Shown one piece after another: positions 16,361-64,000 of a stretch of DNA of 64,000 nucleotides. How positions within the stretch are numbered: the stretch's first letter is position 1; each line of letters starts with the position of its first letter. The translations under genes were made by a program, and so were the position numbers. The notes under the pieces are model-generated. The model did no database searches. It worked only from the letters and a program-made list of their open reading frames with translations, and had not been told where the DNA came from. The stretch is from a virus: positions 1 through 64,000 of the IMG/VR virus record IMGVR_UViG_3300031772_004865. The stretch is one strand, 5' to 3'.

Positions 16361-17200
16361 TTATTGTGCTTTTCCTTTTTTGTTTATATTTAATCCTTTA
16401 ATTTCGTAAGAAGCATCATAATTAATATTATCTCCTTTTGGATAGGGCAATATTTTCCATTTAAGTGCTGCTCTCATTTCTTTCTTTTGTTTATAATTGC
16501 CAAGAAACATCAAATATCGGTGTTTTGGTGTAACTTTTATCGGTTCATAACCATTTTTTATAGCATTTTCTATACTTCCAGTACCTAATCTATTAAATAT
16601 TACTTTCCTATGATACATTTTTCCATCTTTTCTAAATTCAATATCCCCACAACCCATTCCAGTATATAACCAATTAAGTGCCTGATAAATATAACCATGA
16701 TGTCCTTGTCCACTATCAGAATAAGAAATAACTGTTATTGGTTGGGGCAATAACTTTAAACAAGAACTAACAAAAAAAGACAAAGTGTTTTTTGGTAATA
16801 ATTCGTTTACAATTAATCGGTTAAGTTCTATACACCGATAATTTCCTAGTAAATTATTTAAAGAATTATTTGCACTCATTCCAAAGGTACAAACTCCTTG
16901 CAAAATATTATTTTTATTATAAAGACCATAAGAATAAATGATAATAGCAGGAATTCTATGTGCATAGTGTTTATTTAAAAACCACTCATAAGTTAATTTC
17001 TTATCAATATTTTTAACAGAAAAATCTAATTTATTAAAATCATATACTTCTTCTTTACGTTCTTTTTTAATTGGAGCGGAGTTAGCGACTTGCACGCTAC
17101 TCTCGGAACTGGAAGTTCCGCATGTCTTTTTCGACACTTCCCCTGCGAATTTAGTTTTAAGTTTTAATAATTCTTCATCACTTAATTTAGATAAATCCAT
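16361..17200 (-). CDS. Mom-like DNA-modification protein (copy 2)
   Basis: A 279-residue protein with the same core as the 9648-10277 gene: KHYAHRIP, IELNRLIVN, VISYSDSGQGHHGYIYQALNWLYTG, a KHRYLMFLG segment and PYPKG. It differs by an N-terminal extension of about 60 residues (LSKLSDEELLKLKTKF helix, then a Ser-rich linker) and a C-terminal tail. Mu Mom family members modify adenine in DNA. Its single-base overlap with the polymerase gene places it in the replication operon. The Ser-rich linker is encoded by a locally GC-rich stretch around 17074-17155. Confidence 0.75.
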   Translation of the reverse strand: MDLSKLSDEELLKLKTKFAGEVSKKTCGTSSSESSVQVANSAPIKKERKEEVYDFNKLDFSVKNIDKKLTYEWFLNKHYAHRIPAIIIYSYGLYNKNNILQGVCTFGMSANNSLNNLLGNYRCIELNRLIVNELLPKNTLSFFVSSCLKLLPQPITVISYSDSGQGHHGYIYQALNWLYTGMGCGDIEFRKDGKMYHRKVIFNRLGTGSIENAIKNGYEPIKVTPKHRYLMFLGNYKQKKEMRAALKWKILPYPKGDNINYDASYEIKGLNINKKGKAQ

Positions 17201-20200
17201 TAAATTAATCCTCTTCTTTTAAGTTCTTCATTAATTTCTTTTTCGGTAAGATTATCCTGTTTCTTTGTTTTCTTTACTTTAATTTCTTTAATCAATCCCA
17301 AATCCCAGCCTAATGCTTCAAAAATATTCTCACACTTTCCTATAATAGTCTTATCTATCATTTTCTTCCAATTTATATTTTTTACATGGTCAAATTGTTC
17401 TTCGTTATACGCAAGTACATTTTTATCTATTTCTTTTTCACTTGACTTTTCTTCTTTTTCTCCAGTATCTTTATTCTTCATACTTCTTGTTGCTCTACGA
17501 ATTGCTTTTCCAAAAGGTTCTACATACAAATAATAAAATGTATCTCCTGCAACTTTATTAAATCCACATAATTCTTTTGAATATTCTAATGCTCTGGTAA
17601 AAATAGGAGGAGATTTATAAACTGTAGTATTACTTATTTTACAAGGGAATCCAATTTCTGTAATAGATACGGTCTTAATCGCTTCTTTTTGTGAAACGAT
17701 AAATTCTACAATCGCCTCTTGTGATTCATTATCGAGTATTTTATCTATTAATTTAGTTTGAAATTCTTGCATAAATTTACTGCTATCTTTTCTTTTTGCC
17801 TCAATTCCTTTTACTTCTATCTTTAATTTATTATCTTTGGTTCTTAATCTTCCTTTATAATGACAAAGTGCTACAATCAAAATCTGTTCATATTTCCCTT
17901 CATAATCGAATTCAATTCCTGTTTTTTCTTTATTATATTTTTCTTTTGCCCATTGTTGAACTAATTGATTACATAATTCTAAAGGATTTTCTTTTGCTAT
18001 TACCATAACTGAATCGGTATCCAAATAAATTACTTTTACACTACGCTTTCCTAATTCAATTTCAATGTAGTGTAACAAATCTCTAACTATTGAAGTAATC
18101 GCACTTGCTATATTTACATTATAAAGTCTAAAAACTTTTAATGCAGTTACTCCAAATAATGAATTCACTAATGCTTTTACTGCATCGTATTTCATTTGGA
18201 GGTCTTTTGCTTCAGGAGTTTCGGGGTCTAATGATTTAAGTTGTTTCTTTAAATAATCTTTTTTGATTATTAACTTCCTGGCTAATGTAGGTAATAAAGC
18301 ATTTGAATTTTGTTTAAAATAAACAGGATACTTTACTTCATTAGTTTCTCGGTCAGTAATATCGATTTTCAATTCATTTTTATTAATGGTTAAATTAGCA
18401 ATATCTAAACAAAAATCTATAATCGCCATTGGATAGGCAGAATTTCCAGAAATAAATACTTTCCCTTTTCTTCTCATAATTACAAAACCATTTTTAACGG
18501 TTGGACACCATACTATACCAGAATATAATACTTTCTTTTTTTGCGGAGAATATAAATTAGTATAATGTTCATTATTAAAATAAACATTTTTTCTTCCATC
18601 TTCTTGGGTAGAATATCCTAATAATACTAATAAATATTGAAATCTATCTCTTGCTAATTTATCTTTAGCATTGTAATTATTTTTGTTCTTATCTCCATCA
18701 CCTTTCATTAATTCTTTAAATAAAATATTTAATTGTCTAGTAGATAGTTCTTTTAACATCCATAAGGGAATAACTTTATAATTATCTTCTAACTGGATGT
18801 AAGTTGAATAAAGCCATTTTAAATTCCAATCTAACTCTCCTTTTCTAATTCCTTTTCTATCATATTTAGAAACATTCCATTTCAATTGTTTAAATAATAA
18901 ATCTATTTCCTTACAAAATACTGGATTGGCTTTAGAACTTTGACTAATATGATAAATATTACTTTTTACTCTACTATTGCCAAGTTCATTGTGTCCTTCT
19001 GTAATTATCCAAGCATGGATTTTTAATAATTCATCGGAAATAGGATAGTCTTTATTTCTTTTAAAGTTTGCAGAAAGAGGTAAAATAGTATGATATGTAT
19101 GAAAATCTTTAGCAAATGCGATTTGCCAAGAATCTTTTTTAGCTTTTTTATGATTATTATTAACAGTATATTTGTATAGAACTTTATGATTCCAAGTTAA
19201 TAATTGTTTAGTTTTACTATTTTCTAAACTATACATTTCCAAAATTTTAACTTTTTTAATATTTAAATATAGCATTTGTTGAAATTCAATTAAATTTCTT
19301 TCTACACTAAAGGTTGCTAATTCTTCTTTTTCTTGTAACTCATTATATTTTTTCCATCCATCTATAGAAAGAATTTCTGTATCTTCAGAATAGCATCCTA
19401 AATCAAGTTTATATAAATTTTCAAATCTTCCAGTATCACATTTTCTATAGGCTCCTTCGAACTCAATTTCTTCAATAAAATCTTCTCCATAATGTTTGGA
19501 AGGAAGTACTATTCCTTTTGATTTAGCTTCTGATAATAACATCATATCTAATACTTTCGAATTCCAAACAATATCTTCCCAAAGACATTTTCCCATTCTA
19601 CGAATTTCATCATAATAAGGGATAATCTTTTTTTCTTTCTCAATTCCAACCATTTTCTTGATGTCTTCTATGTTCTTCTCTTTTATTTCTTCAGTAATTT
19701 GACTAAAATCTGCTTTTTTATTTAAAGGAGTATTTAAGTATTTATGAGCAATAGAATCCAAAGCATAAGATACTTCTCCTTTATAAATTTTCTTAAATAA
19801 ATCCAAATAATCTAATATACTTATTCCTGTAGGATAAGGAATCTCGTCTTCTTTCCTACCGTATCTCATCTTACTTATTGGAGAAATTAATTCTGCTAAT
19901 TCTAAATTCCATAATCTTTTTATCCGAGCAGCCAAATAAGGATAATCAAATTGGACAAAATTCCAACCTAAAATAAGGTCGGGTTGAGTATCTTTAATAT
20001 AACGAATTGCATTTTTTAATAAATCATCTTCAGCCATTTCTAATTTATCTTGTTTGTAATCCAATTTTTCAAATATTAAATCTTCAAGATAATCTTTAAT
20101 AAACCAATTTCGGATGGTTTTTTCTAATGAATTATAAATAGAAATTGAAGTAATTGTTTTATCGGGATTAAGATAAGAAGGCAATTCTTTTGTTTGAATT

Positions 20201-20520
20201 TCAATATCAATAAATAAATATTTAGTTGGAGAAGGAAGAATTTCACTTACCTTATCAATCATGTAACGTTTTGGATAAATAACATCTGCCTCATAAGAAG
20301 TATCTGTTTTCCGTCTTTTTATTTCTCCAGGTTCTCTGCAAGTAATTTTCGATACTTTTTTTCCGTCGATTGTTTGATAAATTCCTTTCGGGTCCTCTTC
20401 ATAAAAATAAGGTTTAAAAATAGTATCCTGCATAATAGTAAGAGAACCATCCTTCTGTCTATTAAAAAGATATATCTTATTTCCTATATTGGCTATATTT
20501 TTTAAAGGATAATTAAGCAT
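17200..20520 (-). CDS. Family B DNA polymerase with an intein
   Basis: A 1106-residue precursor; after removal of residues 376-693 the polymerase is 788 residues. The exonuclease domain shows FIDIE (D105, E107) and WNFVQFD (N187, D192). Motif A is DLG-SAYP, split by the intein after Gly375; motif B is KALVNSLFG (782-790) and motif C YLDTDS (832-837). The C-terminus has a basic KKTKK tail. It is the main replicative polymerase of the phage. The neighbours are a zinc protein gene and the Mom-like gene, each overlapping by one base. Confidence 0.95.
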   Translation of the reverse strand: MLNYPLKNIANIGNKIYLFNRQKDGSLTIMQDTIFKPYFYEEDPKGIYQTIDGKKVSKITCREPGEIKRRKTDTSYEADVIYPKRYMIDKVSEILPSPTKYLFIDIEIQTKELPSYLNPDKTITSISIYNSLEKTIRNWFIKDYLEDLIFEKLDYKQDKLEMAEDDLLKNAIRYIKDTQPDLILGWNFVQFDYPYLAARIKRLWNLELAELISPISKMRYGRKEDEIPYPTGISILDYLDLFKKIYKGEVSYALDSIAHKYLNTPLNKKADFSQITEEIKEKNIEDIKKMVGIEKEKKIIPYYDEIRRMGKCLWEDIVWNSKVLDMMLLSEAKSKGIVLPSKHYGEDFIEEIEFEGAYRKCDTGRFENLYKLDLGCYSEDTEILSIDGWKKYNELQEKEELATFSVERNLIEFQQMLYLNIKKVKILEMYSLENSKTKQLLTWNHKVLYKYTVNNNHKKAKKDSWQIAFAKDFHTYHTILPLSANFKRNKDYPISDELLKIHAWIITEGHNELGNSRVKSNIYHISQSSKANPVFCKEIDLLFKQLKWNVSKYDRKGIRKGELDWNLKWLYSTYIQLEDNYKVIPLWMLKELSTRQLNILFKELMKGDGDKNKNNYNAKDKLARDRFQYLLVLLGYSTQEDGRKNVYFNNEHYTNLYSPQKKKVLYSGIVWCPTVKNGFVIMRRKGKVFISGNSAYPMAIIDFCLDIANLTINKNELKIDITDRETNEVKYPVYFKQNSNALLPTLARKLIIKKDYLKKQLKSLDPETPEAKDLQMKYDAVKALVNSLFGVTALKVFRLYNVNIASAITSIVRDLLHYIEIELGKRSVKVIYLDTDSVMVIAKENPLELCNQLVQQWAKEKYNKEKTGIEFDYEGKYEQILIVALCHYKGRLRTKDNKLKIEVKGIEAKRKDSSKFMQEFQTKLIDKILDNESQEAIVEFIVSQKEAIKTVSITEIGFPCKISNTTVYKSPPIFTRALEYSKELCGFNKVAGDTFYYLYVEPFGKAIRRATRSMKNKDTGEKEEKSSEKEIDKNVLAYNEEQFDHVKNINWKKMIDKTIIGKCENIFEALGWDLGLIKEIKVKKTKKQDNLTEKEINEELKRRGLI
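18442..19395 (-). mobile_element. Intein with LAGLIDADG homing endonuclease in DNA polymerase motif A
   Basis: 318 residues (376-693 of the precursor). The first residue is Cys376 (CYSEDTEIL), block B is TWNH (T442, H445), the endonuclease blocks are IHAWIITEGH (501-510) and LMKGDGD (605-610), and the C-terminal block runs through YSGIVWCP to FISGN with Asn693 and Ser694 as the +1 nucleophile. The usual His before the last Asn is Gly. Splicing restores DLGSAYP, the metal-binding loop of the polymerase, so the unspliced enzyme should be inactive. Confidence 0.92.
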
Positions 20521-33414: not shown

Positions 33415-34148
33415 TTTATTTCCTTGAAATTTTTTAAAATACTATTTATAATTGCAATTCCCCCCTGTACCATCTTCTGCCCTTCCATTTTCTTAGGTAA
33501 TTCCAAAGCTAAAGAATATTTTATTCCTAATTTTTCTAAAAATCCTTCTACTCCAATATCATACTTGGGAGGAATAATAACTCCATTTTTTAATGGTGTT
33601 TTATAAATTGTTTTTGATTTAAGATAAGGAATAATATTATCATTTTCTATTAATGCTTTTTCTGCTATCAAAGGAAGATTTTCAGATTTATGTTCATAAC
33701 AATAAACTTCACTCTTTCCTGTATCTCCATGTATATCTAAAATTAAATCCGCAGTTCGTGGAAATTCTTCAAATAAAATAGCGAGTTCAGGTACTTTTGA
33801 ATTTTTCATAAAATGAGTATCATTGTTTGTTTCTTGTCTATTACCATTATTTCTATAATTTTTTTCATAACCATAAGGATTGCAAATTGGAAATACATAA
33901 TAATTAAAATCAGGAAACATTACAGGTTGTTTTAACCAATGTAATAAAACATTAATTGCATAATATTCTTCTCCATGATGCCCACCTGTTAAGATTACAG
34001 TTTTCTGTGCCATCTTAGAAACTAATTTCAATACTAACATTGGATAAATTTTATCATAAGAAACATATCCCATAATCTCAATTTTATATGGAAGATTAAG
34101 GTTGATTATTTCAGTTACGAGTTTGTTATATGACCTTACTGTTTTCAT
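33411..34148 (-). CDS. M14-type zinc carboxypeptidase / desuccinylase-like
   Basis: A 245-residue zinc hydrolase. TGGHHGEE (55-61) carries the HxxE ligands, ICNPYGYEKNYRNN matches the NPDG...R substrate region, DIHGD holds the third His, and LALELP gives the catalytic Glu. This order matches M14 carboxypeptidases and the related AstE/AspA acyl-aminoacyl hydrolases. It could trim peptides or peptidoglycan stems. An endonuclease gene separates it from the amidoligase, with four-base overlaps on each side. Confidence 0.8.
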   Translation of the reverse strand: MKTVRSYNKLVTEIINLNLPYKIEIMGYVSYDKIYPMLVLKLVSKMAQKTVILTGGHHGEEYYAINVLLHWLKQPVMFPDFNYYVFPICNPYGYEKNYRNNGNRQETNNDTHFMKNSKVPELAILFEEFPRTADLILDIHGDTGKSEVYCYEHKSENLPLIAEKALIENDNIIPYLKSKTIYKTPLKNGVIIPPKYDIGVEGFLEKLGIKYSLALELPKKMEGQKMVQGGIAIINSILKNFKEIK

Positions 34149-34825
34149 AATATCTTTAACGATTGTAATTTTATTTTATTTAATATATCTATTTTTATTT
34201 TTGGATATAATTTTCTAAATAAATTGAATTTATTTTGTGCGTCATCTCTCCAATAACCTTTTATCTCAATATAAGTATTTATTTTCGGAAGATAAAAATC
34301 TGGAGTATAAGTACAGTTACCTAAATCAAAGGTTTTAGATTCGTATTGCCATTTAATTTTGTTTTTATCTAACCACTTGGCATAAGCAACTTCCCATGTA
34401 CTGCGCATTAAAATATTCTTATATTTAATTCTTTTTCCATGAGTGGCAACTCTGCCAAACATTGTAGCATTTTTTCCTACTGCAAATTTATACCAACATT
34501 CCTGACATCTCGTATATTGGGTTGCAATTATTTTTTTACAATCTATACAATGATTAATAAGATGTTTTCTTCTTTTTTGATTCCGTAATGTTAAATCGGG
34601 TCTTTTTTTACCTTTCATAGGATTTTCATCTATTTCATAAGCACATTGTCGGCATCTTTGTTTTCCATATAAAAATGTACCCAAACTTATTTCATTTTTA
34701 TGACAAATAATACAATAATGTTTTGTTTTTCCTCTTTTATGAGCAAATTTATTAGAACAAATTTTACAATATCCTAATATAGACCATTTAGTTATTTCTT
34801 TTTTACAAATTTTACATTTTTTCAT
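34145..34825 (-). CDS. Putative homing endonuclease, PD-(D/E)XK type with zinc ribbons (copy 2)
   Basis: A 226-residue paralogue of 2006-2635. Zinc-ribbon pairs (CKICKKE, YCKICS, YCIICHK, CRQC, CIDCKK, RCQEC) precede MRSTWEVAYAKWLDK and the TYTPDFYLP...YIEIKGYW nuclease core, which is nearly identical to copy 1 in that region. It sits between amidoligase and M14 peptidase genes, which may have been neighbours before insertion. Confidence 0.75.
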   Translation of the reverse strand: MKKCKICKKEITKWSILGYCKICSNKFAHKRGKTKHYCIICHKNEISLGTFLYGKQRCRQCAYEIDENPMKGKKRPDLTLRNQKRRKHLINHCIDCKKIIATQYTRCQECWYKFAVGKNATMFGRVATHGKRIKYKNILMRSTWEVAYAKWLDKNKIKWQYESKTFDLGNCTYTPDFYLPKINTYIEIKGYWRDDAQNKFNLFRKLYPKIKIDILNKIKLQSLKIL

Positions 34826-38223: not shown

Positions 38224-39018
38224 CTAATTTAAAAGTGAGGCGTAAAGGTTCTTTTTTGAATTACCTTTATTATTAACATTATTTTGGTAAAGAACGACAT
38301 CTACGCCTCGATTAATTTTATTCCTTATTAGATTAGTATAAAATTCTTGCCAATAAGTTCTGTTATAGTTGGCTTTTACATTACAACTTAAACATAAAGT
38401 AATTAAATTATTTTCTTTACAATTTTGTTTATTGTAATCTATATGATGAACATGTAATATTTGACCATTAACTATCAAATGTTCCTCTTCAGTCATACCG
38501 CAGTTTTGACAAATGTGATTATCTCTTTGTCTAATAGATTCTTTCAATTCATCTGTAAATTCAATAGTATATGGTAAATAACTTCTCCCATCAATCCAAT
38601 TATGATTTAACTTTCCTGTTAAATGGATATCATACATAGGATTATTATTACCTTCCATTTGAATACTATGATATTTATCTGCACATTCTCTACATCTTAT
38701 TGCTTTATAATCTTGAATTTCTTTACCACATTCGCAAAAATGCTTCTTTAATGTTTCTCCTATTTTAAAATTGGCATTATTTTCTGGTATTTGAGACCAT
38801 TTAACATAGCATTTCCAACATCTCTTTGCATTATAATTATTTAATTCTTTATTGCAATCAATGCATTTAGGCTTACCTGTTTTAAAATTAGGATGAAATT
38901 TGCCTTTTACAATAATTTTTGCAATATTTTTTAAATAACATTGTTTACAATATTTACCTTCTTGATATTGAGCATGTCTACCTAACTCTTTTTTACAAAT
39001 TGAGCAATACTTTTTCAT
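38224..39018 (-). CDS. HNH homing endonuclease with zinc-ribbon array
   Basis: A 264-residue protein with tandem ribbons (CSICKKELGRHAQY, CIDCNKELNNYNAKRCWKC, CECGKEIQDYKAIRCREC) and a C-terminal HNH core CQNCGMTEEEH...LHVHHIDYNKQNCKENNLITLC. The last 90 residues are close to those of the 61369-62013 gene, including NRTYWQ(E/K)FY, which points to a recent duplication. It overlaps the phosphoesterase gene by four bases. Confidence 0.82.
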   Translation of the reverse strand: MKKYCSICKKELGRHAQYQEGKYCKQCYLKNIAKIIVKGKFHPNFKTGKPKCIDCNKELNNYNAKRCWKCYVKWSQIPENNANFKIGETLKKHFCECGKEIQDYKAIRCRECADKYHSIQMEGNNNPMYDIHLTGKLNHNWIDGRSYLPYTIEFTDELKESIRQRDNHICQNCGMTEEEHLIVNGQILHVHHIDYNKQNCKENNLITLCLSCNVKANYNRTYWQEFYTNLIRNKINRGVDVVLYQNNVNNKGNSKKNLYASLLN

Positions 39019-40235: not shown

Positions 40236-40436
40236 TTATTCTTCTCCAAAAAGTGAAGGATACAATTTCTTTATTCCAATTCCATAGATTTCACTTAATT
40301 TAACTAATTCTTCGTTAGTAGGCATAATCTTTCCAGTCTCCCATTTAGAAATTAAAGTATCAGATACTTTCATCATAGAAGCAACATCCCATTGAGTTAA
40401 TTTTTTTGATTTTCTATAAACTGATAAAAAATTCAT
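40236..40436 (-). CDS. Cro/C1-type helix-turn-helix regulator
   Basis: A 66-residue XRE-family protein: LTQWDVASMMKVSDTLISKWETGK is the DNA-binding helix-turn-helix. GAGGAGTAAC precedes the ATG. It is the first gene after the sigma-factor gene, behind a 165-base leader that contains the promoter-like element at 40564-40614, so it is well placed to control a transcription unit. Single-domain, Cro-like. Confidence 0.85.
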   Translation of the reverse strand: MNFLSVYRKSKKLTQWDVASMMKVSDTLISKWETGKIMPTNEELVKLSEIYGIGIKKLYPSLFGEE

Positions 40437-40563
40437 GTTACTCCTCAAAAAATCTTATTTGAATAAATTTGAACATAAAAAAACTTACAATCTTTAACAT
40501 TTATCATTATCTCATTTTGTTACTTCAAGCCTTTTTTGGCTCATCTTCATTCTCTTTGTCCTT

Positions 40564-40614
40564 CTATATACTATTAACGGAATTTTTGGCATTTTGTAAC
40601 ATTTATTTTTGTAT
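40564..40614 (-). promoter_or_regulatory. 51-bp element repeated upstream of the structured RNA
   Basis: On the minus strand this reads ATACAAAAATAAATGTTACAAAA, nine variable bases, then TTCCGTTAATAGTATATAG. The same blocks with the same spacing occur at 59152-59202 on the plus strand. It lies at the end of the sigma-factor gene (including its last three codons and stop) and in front of the Cro-like gene. The sequence does not fit an ordinary sigma-70 promoter well, so recognition by the phage sigma factor is a hypothesis. Confidence 0.6.
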
Positions 40615-41199
40615 CTTTTCTCTAATCCTTGCAACTATTCGAGATATAGTCATTTTTGTAACACCTAATTCTTCACCTATTTCCTCGTAACTAAGATTTA
40701 AGTTGCCTTGCTTTAAATTCCAAACTTCTTGTTCAATTTCTGTTAATTCAGGATAAAATTCTATTTTTACTTCTTCAGGAGTAGATATATTGTCTGCAAT
40801 ATTTACTTCTTCTTCTCCTTCATCATTTTCTACTGTCTTATAAATTGATTGTGTTTTAAAATGTTTATAAAATTCCATATCCATAAATTTTGGTTGCCAA
40901 TGTTGTTGTTCAAATCGACTATTTAGATAATGAGAAAATGGTGCTTTTGGTTTGAAATCATTTATCCATTCAATTATTTCTAAACTTAATTGTTGAATTA
41001 CATCATCTAATTCAACTTGTTTGGTATCTACTAATCTAAATTCAATACCTTGATATTTAAAACTTTGTTCAAAAAATACATACTTTGCTTTTTCCACAAT
41101 AGTTGGATAAAGTATTTTAAAAATCTGGTCTAAAATCTTTTTATCCTTTTTCTTTTTATATTGTTTTACTAATTGGTCTAATTCATTCAGTTTTTCCAT
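40603..41199 (-). CDS. Sigma-70-like RNA polymerase sigma factor
   Basis: A 198-residue protein with a region-2-like helical part (QVELDDVIQQLSLEIIEWINDF) and a C-terminal region 4 helix-turn-helix (LSYEEIGEELGVTKMTISRIVARIREKI). The size is that of compact phage or ECF-like sigma factors. It should direct host RNA polymerase to phage promoters of a later class. The 51-bp element that starts in its last codons is repeated before the structured RNA and plus-strand operon. Confidence 0.75.
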   Translation of the reverse strand: MEKLNELDQLVKQYKKKKDKKILDQIFKILYPTIVEKAKYVFFEQSFKYQGIEFRLVDTKQVELDDVIQQLSLEIIEWINDFKPKAPFSHYLNSRFEQQHWQPKFMDMEFYKHFKTQSIYKTVENDEGEEEVNIADNISTPEEVKIEFYPELTEIEQEVWNLKQGNLNLSYEEIGEELGVTKMTISRIVARIREKIQK

Positions 41200-42525: not shown

Positions 42526-43350
42526 CTATCCTACCAGTTTTTTGTAATTTTCTTTAATAGTTTTTTCATCTGGATTAATATAAATCATTGTGGTGGTTAA
42601 ACTTGCGTGCCCAAGCAATTTACTTACCGTATTAATATCTACTCCTTTATTATAAATTAAATTACGGGCGAAGGAATGTCTTATTAAATGACTGTAAATA
42701 TTTTTTCCTAAATATTTCTTTAATAATTTCATAATATAATGCACTTTTCCCAAGGTCAAATTAAAAGCATTTATTCCTTCTTCATTCTCACTAATAAAAT
42801 AATCTTGTATTTCTTTTTTGACTTTTTCTGGATAACAAATTATTCGTTCTTTATCCCCTTTCCCATAAAGTTTAGCTGAATTTTCCTCTAAATTAAAACT
42901 ACTTCTTTTAATAGTAAGTAATTCATTCTTCCTACAACCAGAATAATACATAAAATCTATTACTGCCCTTATCTTTGTCGGTGTCATTTTATTACTAAAA
43001 TAAGTAATTAAATATTTTTTTGCTTCTTCAATATCTTTTTCGGTTAAATACTCTGGTATCTTTTGTTCAGTTTTTATTAATTTAATTTTATACCACTCGT
43101 TTTGTTCTTTTGGAATTTGTAAAAAACCAGAATAATAACTTCTTCCTGCCAAAATAAATTGATTTCGGGATTTCAAAGAATACTTACTATTAGTTATAAA
43201 AAAATTAGTAATAACATCCTGCGATACTATTTCAATTTTCTGTTCTTCCATATAAGATAACCAAATTCTTATAATATTAAAATAATTTTTGCTCTGACCT
43301 CTTGCAGTAAGATAATCTAAATATTTATTTAATTGCTCTTGATTAGTCAT
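42526..43350 (-). CDS. Tyrosine recombinase / integrase
   Basis: A 274-residue XerD-like recombinase with all catalytic residues: R140 (SGCRKNE), K164 (YGKGDKER), H221 and R224 (HLIRHSFA), H248 (LLGHAS) and Y257 (MIYINP). An N-terminal SAM-like DNA-binding domain precedes. It cuts and rejoins DNA at specific sites. Whether it integrates the phage, resolves dimers or serves another inversion is not clear; no att-like repeat was spotted beside it. Confidence 0.87.
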   Translation of the reverse strand: MTNQEQLNKYLDYLTARGQSKNYFNIIRIWLSYMEEQKIEIVSQDVITNFFITNSKYSLKSRNQFILAGRSYYSGFLQIPKEQNEWYKIKLIKTEQKIPEYLTEKDIEEAKKYLITYFSNKMTPTKIRAVIDFMYYSGCRKNELLTIKRSSFNLEENSAKLYGKGDKERIICYPEKVKKEIQDYFISENEEGINAFNLTLGKVHYIMKLLKKYLGKNIYSHLIRHSFARNLIYNKGVDINTVSKLLGHASLTTTMIYINPDEKTIKENYKKLVG

Positions 43351-57987: not shown

Positions 57988-58016
57988 AGTATAACATAAA
58001 TAAAACCAAATGTCAA
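57988..58016 (-). promoter_or_regulatory. Leftward early promoter
   Basis: TTGACA (58011-58016), 17-base spacer ending TGT, TATACT (57988-57993): a near-perfect extended -10 sigma-70 promoter at the head of the minus-strand gene block. Confidence 0.87.
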
Positions 58017-59151: not shown

Positions 59152-59202
59152 ATACAAAAATAAATGTTACAAAAAAGGAATTTTTCCGTTAATAGTATAT
59201 AG
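59152..59202 (+). promoter_or_regulatory. Promoter-like element for the structured RNA
   Basis: The same 51-bp two-block element as at 40564-40614: ATACAAAAATAAATGTTACAAAA, nine variable bases, TTCCGTTAATAGTATATAG. It ends directly before the first stem of the structured RNA, so it is the likely promoter, perhaps read by the phage sigma factor. The ATACAAAAATAA part copies the last codons and stop of the sigma gene. Confidence 0.6.
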
Positions 59203-59690
59203 GGGCAGTTAATGCTTCAATGCCAATAATAATCCGAAAAGGAAAAAGGGGTTCACAGCGAATACTTGCTCCTAAATGTAGTTAAGATATTGGGTTATGT
59301 CTTTTTACCTGCTATTTTTATTGGCAGACAAGTCATCCTATAAGGTTATTGGATTGGGGTTTCCTGGTCGACTTATAGTGATGTAACTATGGGTGCTTAC
59401 TGATTATCGGGAGGCACCCGATTGATACTTCCTCCTAATTTGACTGCTTATTTAGCGATAAGCCTCGAATTAGGTTATTTATGACCTCGAAAGGTGAGTC
59501 GTGTCTATCTGGTTGCAACCAGGACAAGCCGAGTAGAAAAGATAAGGATTATCGTATAGACTAGAATGGTTTAGCTAACTATTTAATAAGATAATCCAAT
59601 TAATTTTCAACCAGCTTATTATCAAACGATAGTAAGTCTAAAGCTCAAGATAAAGTTCGAAAGGATTTTGTTTTGGGCTTTTTTATTTTA
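59203..59690 (+). ncRNA. Large structured non-coding RNA, about 490 nt
   Basis: Gene-free and visibly more GC-rich than the flanks, with many perfect stems in order: ATAGT/ACTAT (about 59376-59390); GGGTGC/GCACCC (59391-59396 with 59414-59419), mutually exclusive with ATCGGG/CCCGAT (59406-59411 with 59417-59422); CCTAATT/AATTAGG (59434-59440 with 59468-59474) enclosing GCTTAT/ATAAGC; ACCT-CGAA-AGGT; the palindrome CTGGTTGCAACCAG (about 59508-59521); GGATTATC/GATAATCC (59546-59553 with 59590-59597); and a terminator stem at the end. Neither frame pair gives a protein. Size and phage setting recall the GOLLD and ROOL ornate RNAs, but identity is not established. Confidence 0.75.
59640..59690 (+). 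terminator. Rho-independent terminator of the structured RNA
   Basis: AAAGCTCAA (59640-59648) pairs with TTGGGCTTT (59673-59681) with one G-U, followed by TTTTTTATTTTA. It closes the structured RNA before the leader of the structural genes. Confidence 0.75.
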
Positions 59691-59990: not shown

Positions 59991-60353
59991 ATGTTAGAAT
60001 CAACTAATTTAATTATTAAACGAGGAGATTCTTGGAGTAGAACAATCTATTTCGAAGACGAATATAATGCTAGAATAAATATAACAGGGTGGATTATTTA
60101 TTTTTTAATAAAAGTGAAAATAGACGATTTAGATAATGCTACTGATGTAATTCCAGCAACAGTAACTTTTTCTAATCCTATCGATGGAGAAGCTACAATA
60201 CAATTAACTTCGACACAGACAAATGTTTTAGGTAATCGTTTATTTGGAATAAAAGTTATTACTGATAAAATGATAGGAATTACAAAAGAAGCGATTACTG
60301 TTTTGGAAGGTACTATTGTATTTACTGACCGAGTAGTCCAGGCGGTGTCCTAA
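59991..60353 (+). CDS. Tail/baseplate-type beta-sandwich protein
   Basis: A 120-residue protein with IKRGDSWSRTIYF, INITGWIIYFLIK and ATIQLTSTQTNVLGNRLFGIKVI. The RGDxW...ITGxxIxFxIK...GxxxIxLTxxxT pattern is that of the N-terminal sandwich domain of phage baseplate upper or tail-fibre proteins. Overlaps the next gene by TAATG. Confidence 0.65.
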   Translation: MLESTNLIIKRGDSWSRTIYFEDEYNARINITGWIIYFLIKVKIDDLDNATDVIPATVTFSNPIDGEATIQLTSTQTNVLGNRLFGIKVITDKMIGITKEAITVLEGTIVFTDRVVQAVS

Positions 60354-60598
60354 TGTCAGATAAGATTATATGTAAAATTTTCGACGAACCAAAAATAAAA
60401 GTAAAAATCTTCGATGAACCTAAAATAGTTATTAAATTTACTGAACAAGGTTTAAAAGGAGATAAAGGTGCAACTGGTCCTGCAGGAACTACAGACCATG
60501 CGTTATTATCTAATTTAGATTATGCTAATTCGGGGCACATTGGTTTCCAGAAAAAAATGATTTATGACCCAGATTACAAAACTTATTTAGTAGAATAA
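60353..60598 (+). CDS. Small fibre-associated protein with a collagen-like stretch
   Basis: An 81-residue protein with a repeated IFDEPKI segment, GLKGDKGATGPAG collagen-like triplets and TDHALLSNLDYANSGHIGFQ, a phrase recurring in phage fibre proteins. Likely a minor tail component. Confidence 0.6.
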   Translation: MSDKIICKIFDEPKIKVKIFDEPKIVIKFTEQGLKGDKGATGPAGTTDHALLSNLDYANSGHIGFQKKMIYDPDYKTYLVE

Positions 60599-60609
60599 AA
60601 AGATAATTA

Positions 60610-60634
60610 AGTTTCTTTACGAGACTAATTTTTT
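60610..60634 (+). terminator. Weak terminator or attenuator
   Basis: AGTTTC (60610-60615) pairs with GAGACT (60621-60626) with one G-U, five-base loop, followed by AATTTTTT. A short stem; partial termination before the collagen-like gene is possible. Confidence 0.4.
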
Positions 60635-60670
60635 GAATTTAATAATTTTTAGAAGAGGAGGAAAATCCAA

Positions 60671-61318
<648 letters not shown>

Positions 61319-61368
61319 TTAATTTTTAATAAATGAGGGAAAGACTTTCTTTCCCTCCCAAAAATAAA

Positions 61369-62013
61369 ATGAATAATAAAGGAAATTTAAAACATGGAGA
61401 AACACTAAAAAAACATTATTGTCTTGATTGTGATAATGAAATAAGTTATAACACATGGTCTTATGGAAAACAACGTTGCAGAAGTTGTGCAGCAAAAGAA
61501 AATTTAAAAAATCCAAAAAATCATTCAGGTTATATAAATGGTAAATTTAGCGACAATCCAAATCATTGTATAGATTGTAATAAAATAATAAGTCCAACTA
61601 CAAAACGATGTAAAAGTTGTAATACAAAATATTTACATAAAATTGGTATTCTAAATAGTAAAGATGAAAATAATCCAAATTTTGGTAATCATAAATTAGC
61701 AGGTAAGAATCATTGGAATTGGATAGATGGTCGTTCTTATGAACCTTATACTGAAGAATTTAATAAAGAACTTAAAGAATTAATTCTCAAACGAGATAAT
61801 TATGAGTGCCAAAACTGCGGTATGACTCAAGAAGAGCATTTAATAGTAATTGGTCGAATATTAACTATTCATCATATTGATTATGATAAGAAGAATTGTA
61901 AAGAAGAAAATTTAATTACAACTTGTCTTTGGTGTAATACTAGAGCAAATTTTAATCGAACTTATTGGCAAAAATTTTATATAAATAAACTTATAAAAAG
62001 AGGAATAAAATAA
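61369..62013 (+). CDS. HNH homing endonuclease with zinc-ribbon array (in the tail operon)
   Basis: A 214-residue protein with ribbons (CLDCDNEISYNTWSYGKQRCRSC, CIDCNKIISPTTKRCKSC), a GKNHWNWIDGRSYEPY linker and HNH core CQNCGMTQEEH...LTIHHIDYDKKNCKEENLITTC. Very close to 38224-39018. It sits between two fibre genes. A 9-bp hairpin GAGGGAAAG/CTTTCCCTC lies 12 bases upstream, and its 3' end carries the ribosome site of the next gene. A start 36 bases earlier is possible. Confidence 0.82.
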   Translation: MNNKGNLKHGETLKKHYCLDCDNEISYNTWSYGKQRCRSCAAKENLKNPKNHSGYINGKFSDNPNHCIDCNKIISPTTKRCKSCNTKYLHKIGILNSKDENNPNFGNHKLAGKNHWNWIDGRSYEPYTEEFNKELKELILKRDNYECQNCGMTQEEHLIVIGRILTIHHIDYDKKNCKEENLITTCLWCNTRANFNRTYWQKFYINKLIKRGIK

Positions 62014-62014
62014 A

Positions 62015-63226
62015 ATGTCCACTAAAAAAGTTCCCGTAACTGAAAATTTTCCTTTCCAGCAACCAGTAAAGGATAAAGACCTTAGTGCTCCTCCTGCAGC
62101 AACTAAAGGGCATCGTTACATTGTTGCAGCAACTGGTTCAGGGGATTGGACTGGTCATACTGGAGATATTGCAATTGGAAATGGTAGTGGATGGGATTTT
62201 GTTACAAAAGCAGAAGGATTAATTACTTGGATAGAGGATGAGAATCTTTATTATTATTTTGATGGTAGTAATTGGATAGTTTCTAATCCTTTTAATAAAA
62301 CTATTTCTGGAGAAATTATTGGATTAACAGATAAACCAACTCCATTAGATGCAGATGTTGCATTAATAGAAAGTGTAGCAGATACAAATGCAAAAAGAAA
62401 ATTAACTTGGCTTAATATAAAAAATACCCTTAAAACTTATTTTGATGGAATTTATAAAGCAACTTTTGCTTATACAGCAGAAGATGTAGCAAATAAAGAA
62501 AATACTACAATAGATACTAGTACCACAAAATATCCGACAGTTAATTTATTAAAAACAGGAATAGATGCTAGAGTAAAAAATAATGGTACAGTTAATCCTA
62601 CTAATTTATTAAGTAATGGGGATTTTGAAAATTGGAGTGCTGGAGCAAGTGCTGCTCCTGATAGATGGATATTTTATACTTCTGGAACAGGAACAATAGA
62701 AAGAGAAGCAAGTGTAATTAAGTTAGGAACTTACTCGGTTCAATTAAATGTAGCGTTAAATGACGTAGCCACGCAAATATATCAAAATGTTGCTACTGAA
62801 AAGGGCATTGCTTACTGGTTGGGTCGTAAAGCAACTTTAGGCATATGGGTATGGGCTTCGGTTGCAAGTAGAGTAACTGTAAAAATAAACTACGCAGGGG
62901 CGACCGATGAAACTACTTCTACTCCTCATTCTGGGGGTAGTGCTTGGGAATTTTTAACAGTAACCGCAACTATTCCTGCTGACGCTTCAAGAATATGGGG
63001 AGTGGTTTATGTTTCTACTGGTGCAGCTACAACAGTTTATGCAGATGGTGCAATGTTAGTAGAAGGTGAAAGTATATTTGCATTTAGTGAGGGAATAACT
63101 CCAATTCCTTTAGGAACAGCAGCAGCAGTTTTAACAGCAAATAAAGGTCCAGCAGGTTGTACAGCAGTTACTGGTTGGATAGCAATAAATATTGGGGGAG
63201 TTCAAAGATTCATACCTTATTGGTAA
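62015..63226 (+). CDS. Tail fibre / receptor-binding protein
   Basis: A 403-residue protein. The start (VPVTENFPFQQPV, KGHRYIVAATGSGDWTGHTGDIA, GSGWDFVTKAEG, YYYFDGSNW) is a DUF2793-like tail domain shared with 60671-61318. The middle is a linker with DNKRKLTWLNIKNTL-like text, and residues about 200-370 form a beta-sandwich carbohydrate-binding module (NLLSNGDFENWS, GTYSVQLNVA, YADGAMLVEGE). It probably recognises a host surface glycan. Confidence 0.78.
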   Translation: MSTKKVPVTENFPFQQPVKDKDLSAPPAATKGHRYIVAATGSGDWTGHTGDIAIGNGSGWDFVTKAEGLITWIEDENLYYYFDGSNWIVSNPFNKTISGEIIGLTDKPTPLDADVALIESVADTNAKRKLTWLNIKNTLKTYFDGIYKATFAYTAEDVANKENTTIDTSTTKYPTVNLLKTGIDARVKNNGTVNPTNLLSNGDFENWSAGASAAPDRWIFYTSGTGTIEREASVIKLGTYSVQLNVALNDVATQIYQNVATEKGIAYWLGRKATLGIWVWASVASRVTVKINYAGATDETTSTPHSGGSAWEFLTVTATIPADASRIWGVVYVSTGAATTVYADGAMLVEGESIFAFSEGITPIPLGTAAAVLTANKGPAGCTAVTGWIAINIGGVQRFIPYW

Positions 63227-63267
63227 ATTAAAGAAATATATATTACATTTAATATAGAAAAGGAATT

Positions 63268-64000
63268 ATGGATAATTTAAAACGAGAAGTAAAAAAAATT
63301 CGTAACCTAAAACAAAATCAAGGGAAGTCAGAAGAAGAATTGAATTCTCTTGCCAAAGAAAGTTTAGAGAAAAATGAAATTACAAATTCTTTAACTTTTT
63401 GTTTACCAGAAGAAAAAGAATTTGCTACTAATTTATTAAATAAATATTTATTAGAATCTTCTATAACTTCATTTTCAGAAAAAAATACTTTAAGGAATTT
63501 AATAGATTTAGAAATTTTATTAGAAAGAGTTAAAAAATTTATTAATAATGAACAAAGCAAAGCAAATCCGACTATTCCTTTACAATTTTTAGAACAAGTA
63601 ACTGAATTAACAAATCAAATAATAGAAATAAAAGAAGGATTAGGATTAGTATCAAAAAAAGACGGAAAGAACGACGCCTCAAAAGTAATAGATGATTTAA
63701 CAGAGAGATTTCATAAATGGATAAATAAACCAGAAAACCGAAGTAATTACGAATTTCAATGTCCTAAATGTGCAGAAATATTTTTAATTAGAAGAAGATT
63801 AGATAAAGAGAAAGATGAAGTTGTTGACCATCCTTGGTTTATTGACGGAGGTATTTTATTTAATAAAGCAATTTTTGAAGATTTAGAATTAGGAAAGATT
63901 TCAGAGGACCAAGCAGCACGTTTTTTAAATGCTACACTTGATTATATAAAATGGATTAGGCAAAATTATCCACTAAATCAAGATAAAAACGAAGAAACAG
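63268..64000 (+). CDS. Candidate terminase small subunit or structural protein (partial)
   Basis: The first 244 codons of a gene cut by the window end. The product is charged and helical, with a middle helix NQIIEIKEGLG, a cysteine pair FQCPKCAEIFLIRRR and a conserved-looking HPWFIDGGILFNKAIFEDLELGKISEDQAARFLNATLDYI. Position after fibre genes and size are compatible with a terminase small subunit, but no motif proves this. Confidence 0.5.
   Translation, partial: MDNLKREVKKIRNLKQNQGKSEEELNSLAKESLEKNEITNSLTFCLPEEKEFATNLLNKYLLESSITSFSEKNTLRNLIDLEILLERVKKFINNEQSKANPTIPLQFLEQVTELTNQIIEIKEGLGLVSKKDGKNDASKVIDDLTERFHKWINKPENRSNYEFQCPKCAEIFLIRRRLDKEKDEVVDHPWFIDGGILFNKAIFEDLELGKISEDQAARFLNATLDYIKWIRQNYPLNQDKNEET

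Follow-up and report, generated by a model that had tools for sequence, protein, structure and literature searches.

In SPO1-type Bacillus phages the host sigma factor reads the early genes and a phage sigma factor then opens the next class, and the promoters of phage sigma factors are usually not predictable from sequence. Phage 7-11 encodes the sigma factor SaPh711_gp47, whose late promoters have the consensus GTAAtg-(16)-aCTA (PMC8948821), and the sigma factor of phage phiEco32, phi32_gp36, serves middle and late promoters of the form tAATGTAtA (PMC8948821, PMC4331800). The two proteins are homologous, with 15% identity, and their promoters lie at similar genome positions with a different consensus (PMC8948821).

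Here we describe a locus for which 7-11 and phiEco32 appear to be the closest described case, and which combines a smaller, two-site regulon with a large structured RNA as a target and with a predicted recognition by the phage sigma. It lies in a 64,000-nt stretch of viral DNA, the whole of which we analyzed and refer to as the window, contained in a 77,390-bp virus record (G000). As in 7-11, there is a phage sigma factor with a region-4-like C-terminus, the candidate promoters are bipartite with a 16-bp gap, host sigma-70 promoters serve early genes that are transcribed opposite to the structural genes, and promoter positions are kept while the sequence has changed. Unlike 7-11, which has eight promoters, there are two here; a structured RNA is present, with none described in 7-11; one site overlaps the end of the sigma gene, and the matching extends to the start region. 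For 7-11, dependence on the sigma was measured, whereas here it is only predicted. PhiEco32 likewise has a phage sigma with its own promoter class serving middle and late operons, and a relative whose sigma reads a different consensus; however, its promoters are six single-element sites lacking a -35, and it uses an additional regulator, gp79. The SPO1-type cascade, with its many middle promoters and a second cascade step, is also unlike the two sites here.

The element at the center of this locus occurs in two copies, with 23 and 19 bases identical around a 9-base gap, and we think it probable that the phage sigma governs a minimal regulon of two promoters, for which the copies supply the -35 and -10 elements and the start region. 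The features concerned are given below by window position and strand.

40236 to 40436, minus strand: Cro-like helix-turn-helix gene, the first recognizable gene after P1
40564 to 40614, minus strand: copy 1 (P1), a promoter-type site overlapping the sigma stop codon
40600 to 40595, minus strand: -35 hexamer of P1, GTTACA, followed by a 16-bp spacer
40578 to 40573, minus strand: -10 hexamer of P1, GTTAAT, followed by the 7-base discriminator AGTATAT (40572 to 40566) and a predicted start at about 40565
40603 to 41199, minus strand: sigma factor gene, 198 amino acids, with region 4 by Pfam; region 2 is weak in relatives
57988 to 58016, minus strand: host-type early promoter, TTGACA-17-TATACT, with TG before the -10
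56595 and 54685, minus strand: early promoters of the same class
59152 to 59202, plus strand: copy 2 (P2), a promoter-type site
59166 to 59171, plus strand: -35 hexamer of P2, GTTACA, followed by a 16-bp spacer
59188 to 59193, plus strand: -10 hexamer of P2, GTTAAT, followed by the discriminator (59194 to 59200) and a predicted start at about 59201
59201 to 59690, plus strand: structured RNA from P2, fold z-score -7.0, with a terminator at 59640 to 59681
59991 to 64000, plus strand: start of the rightward structural block, which follows the RNA and contains tail and then terminase, portal-type, and capsid-type genes

The element reads ATACAAAAATAAATGTTACAAAA - 9 bases - TTCCGTTAATAGTATATAG, and the gap, TGCCAAAAA in one copy and AAGGAATTT in the other, differs at seven of its nine bases. 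The original prediction held that these blocks recur at the same spacing with no other copy, and this is borne out: a search over 27 positions with up to three mismatches returned exactly two sites in the window and in the whole 77,390-bp record, so that the scan for further instances of the two-block motif adds none, and it returned no site in shuffled sequence. The next best sites in G000 carry at least eight mismatches, which is the noise level, and the genome holds no graded family of weaker copies. As had also been claimed, copy 1 takes in the last codons of the sigma gene; a terminator search around this gene end found none. Identity in G000 runs 13-14 bases upstream of the -35 hexamer, into those codons, and this extra stretch could possibly reflect an A-rich upstream element or a local exchange. 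It extends beyond what a promoter needs, and in this respect it favors a different reading, in which one copy duplicates the other and their likeness is kept by recombination or gene conversion, with no need for a shared reader.

Distant relatives were reached in IMG/VR through the terminase and other conserved genes: G003 (105,887 bp), G004 (77,567 bp), G006 (86,231 bp), G008 (109,585 bp), G009 (104,368 bp), G010 (105,284 bp), and G011 (101,995 bp). Direct terminal overlaps of 97-127 bp indicate that G003, G008, G009, G010, and G011 are probably complete circles. The exact G000 pattern recurs in IMG/VR only in G001, a near-identical contig collinear with the window, in which copy 1 is unchanged and the sequence stops about 860 bp short of copy 2; pattern scans of IMG/VR gave nothing new beyond G001 and G003. 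Searches of GenBank phages by DNA and by terminase returned no relative, nor did a terminase search of bacterial genome contigs, and G007, a distant contig of other composition, was uninformative and was set aside.

A matched pair, with one copy at the 3′ end of the sigma gene and the other at the 5′ end of a structured RNA, is present in G000, G003, G006, G008, and G010, and its sequence differs between genomes while matching inside each one. As G008 and G010 are close relatives they are counted as one lineage, which leaves only four independent lineages. The G006 pair reads ACTTGACAAAAT-gagaaat-TGATATATACTTAGTAGT at the sigma stop and ACTTGACAAAAT-cgatttt-TGATATATACTTAGTAGT before the structured RNA, and that of G008 and G010 reads TTACTTAAAT-14 bases-AGTATACTTATAAGTAG, with upstream differences at one or two positions. 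When the G003 genome is scanned with its RNA-side sequence, the sole good match (24/27, next independent site 19) is at 101459 on the minus strand, at the end of an HNH gene directly 3′ of the sigma gene. Copy 1 overlaps the sigma stop codon in G000, G004, G006, G008, and G010; G004, whose contig lacks the RNA region, has this copy only. Exactly two copies were found in three circular-complete genomes. HNH homing-endonuclease-type genes are themselves dispersed in G000 (2006-2635, 34145-34825, 38224-39018, 61333-62013, and L004 beyond the window); copies within one genome share 75-85% DNA identity, and relatives have different copies at different places.

For uniform scoring, the RNA-side copy served as the query, using 10 bases at the -35 and 13 at the -10 and start and ignoring the spacer. 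The best other match in each genome is the site by the sigma gene, which scores 23 of 23 in G000 and G008, 22 in G006 and G010, and 20 in G003. The next independent site in a genome reaches 16-18, and shuffled genomes give 16-20 at best. The G003 copy exceeds the best of 60 shuffles by one point only, so its sigma-adjacent position carries part of the weight there. An unbiased hunt for bipartite repeats (an exact 13-mer with an upstream 10-mer) was swamped by other repeats; only in G000 and G006 did the pair rank near the top, and the hunt also picked up matched host-type early promoters.

The sites share an architecture of two hexamers separated by 16 bp (17 bp in G003), and in all five paired genomes P1 lies ahead of the leftward operon and P2 ahead of the RNA and structural genes, each on the right strand. 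Identity is 100% within genomes versus 72% between genomes for the -10 hexamer, 100% versus 33% for the seven-base discriminator, 92% versus 46% for the -35 hexamer, and 88% versus 31% for the four bases before it, whereas the middle of the spacer is at background (41% versus 44%). When every copy 1 is set against the copy 2 of its own genome, 74 matches out of 76 are obtained, compared to 64 for the best wrong pairing. Just past the predicted start, orthologous copy-1 sites are 72% alike versus 57% for the two copies in one genome, and the conserved first bases of the leftward transcript include a ribosome-binding site. A short stretch that tracks its distant partner, next to bases that track their orthologue, is the mark of one shared binding specificity. 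To judge from these alignments, the pattern is that of bipartite promoters that have evolved together with one common factor, and a recent duplication is disfavored. Duplication would have to be reconciled with four different matched pairs in four lineages and with an identity that ends at the predicted start, from which point the transcript resembles its orthologues; moreover, conversion would not spare a spacer within an identical stretch, and 10-20 bp is little sequence for homologous exchange. We consider it quite improbable, including in the form originally offered, a recombination-derived duplication that carried a promoter. The accompanying proposal of a promoter class is strengthened, as promoter-type sites open two transcription units and co-vary as a pair in relatives.

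The inverse orientation of the copies, together with a conserved integrase-family gene about 1.3 kb from the sigma gene, could also point to a site-specific recombination site of a phage tyrosine recombinase, bounding an invertible 18.6-kb segment. Divergent operons alone explain this orientation, however, and all five genomes show one and the same arrangement, none of them inverted. In nearly all copies, inverted arms around a short center are not beyond chance, and the would-be crossover region is the spacer, the part that differs; a tyrosine-recombinase core site was rejected on these two counts, and an invertible segment is very hard to credit. As a separate observation, the tyrosine-recombinase (integrase) gene near the sigma gene (42526-43350, minus strand) is conserved in relatives and suggests a temperate or recombining lifestyle.

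The sigma gene lies by copy 1 in all five paired genomes and is the only regulator gene found in all five; the comparison suggests that one factor reads both sites, most likely the phage sigma. Pfam Sigma70_r4 is above the cut-off in G000 and G001, and the relatives show a weaker region 4 together with region 2; an HMM built from the set was also used for detection. Orthologues are present in G001, G003, G004, G006, G008, and G010 and, outside G001, are 29-44% identical to the window's sigma, and no sigma gene was found in the complete genomes G009 and G011. The structure model is of modest confidence (mean pLDDT 69), and its best Foldseek matches are mostly sigma factors, none of which reaches E 0.001. 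A cysteine-rich, zinc-finger-like insert is found in the orthologues of G006, G008, and G010 and is missing in G000, G003, and G004; two sigma genes with the insert are the following.

L043, 9660 to 10388, plus strand: sigma gene with zinc-finger-like insert
L053, 14140 to 14850, minus strand: sigma gene with zinc-finger-like insert

A counterpoint to recognition by the sigma is that matching is strongest in the discriminator, a segment that classical sigma factors recognize weakly; two of the early promoters in G000 also have matching discriminators. This distribution would suit host sigma-70-type promoters with a shared operator, where a repressor or activator other than a sigma, Cro-like or unrecognized, binds the -10 and start of both sites and co-evolves with them. 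Start regions that by eye are partly palindromic in some lineages (e.g., TACTTATAAGTA in G008), the fit of the G006 promoters to sigma-70, and the Cro-like gene directly after P1 in G000, G004, and G006 would agree with such an operator. However, the pair is still matched in G003, G008, and G010, three of the five paired genomes, where the Cro-like gene is absent and the only HTH_3 similarity is region 4 of the sigma; Cro operators were rejected on this ground. No palindrome is common to all lineages, the -35 and its four preceding bases, which lie 35 bp from the start across an unconstrained spacer, co-vary too, and a repressor would not account for why G000 and G004 have lost the sigma-70 consensus. 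We regard a shared operator as unlikely. The Cro-like regulator, originally placed in the regulon, is not a constant member of it, and in G008 a SpoVG-like gene (PF04026, just below the cut-off) replaces it after P1.

Leftward beyond P1, the genes in G000 are the Cro-like gene, an exonuclease-like phosphoesterase, a primase, and a DNA polymerase B. A short ORF with a ribosome-binding site precedes the Cro-like gene (40500-40560, minus strand), likewise in G004 and G006; by eye it resembles the N-terminus of the G008 SpoVG-like protein and may be a remnant of a lost SpoVG or a leader peptide. Within the DNA polymerase B gene (17200-20520, minus strand), residues ~366-724 match unrelated phage genes, which suggests an intein or similar insert.

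The TTGACA-17-TATACT early promoters of G000 have counterparts in the early region of G001, G003, and G008. Relative to the host housekeeping consensus, the sites differ in G000, G003, G004, G008, and G010 and fit in G006 (TTGACA-16-TATACT). By their hexamers, the G000 sites (GTTACA-16-GTTAAT) are predicted to be poor sigma-70 promoters and the G006 sites good ones. The latter is the chief objection to a strict phage-sigma reading, as a dedicated sigma is then not required, at least in G006. G011, which has no detectable sigma, carries many TTGACA-16-TATACT-TATAGTAAGGAG promoter-like sites genome-wide (L071-L076), with a ribosome-binding site right at the predicted start; this one case agrees with a sigma taking over from TTGACA-16-TATACT promoters.

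The structured RNA measures 430-560 nt across genomes and has a terminator at its end. Rfam returned no match for the window, or for the RNA when searched again at a loose threshold. RNAs in relatives are as follows.

L016, 14080 to 14638: structured RNA, fold z-score -3.7
L047, 4560 to 4986, minus strand: structured RNA, fold z-score -5.2
L054, 13927 to 14482: structured RNA, fold z-score -6.7

The five RNAs fail to align end to end and share modules piecemeal, namely GGAYTGGG..CCTGGTCGA, a TACTGATTATCGGG hairpin, CGAAAGGTGAG, and CCGAAA..GGGTTCACAG; these modules are absent from the complete sigma-less genomes G009 and G011. It is uncertain whether the tail operon belongs to the P2 unit, since a strong terminator closes the RNA ahead of the first structural gene. 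In the structural block, 66-bp tandem repeats at 60953-61264 encode a collagen-like stretch of a tail-fiber-type gene.

In the two-promoter regulon that we favor, host polymerase would start at the early promoters at 54.7-58.0 kb and read leftwards over as much as ~17 kb to arrive at the sigma gene (40.6 kb). The protein made from this gene would then direct host core polymerase to P1 and P2. P1, embedded at the sigma stop codon, would open the next leftward (replication) operon, and P2 would open the structured RNA that heads the rightward structural operon. Promoter bases and sigma would diverge together between phages. We infer that the sigma is the reader, and likewise infer when each step occurs and where the transcripts begin. 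As a broader and more doubtful speculation, the sigmas of this group may read three elements, the -35, the -10, and the seven-base discriminator, with a specificity that has shifted by lineage from host-like (G006) to strongly diverged (G000), and may have kept only two target promoters, one of them in order to turn on a large structured RNA that either regulates late gene expression or goes along with it. The four lineages, with matched pairs beside their likely cognate sigma genes, would form a natural series for following how a sigma factor and its promoters change together, and a large phage RNA not described before gains from the pair a predicted start and a likely regulator.
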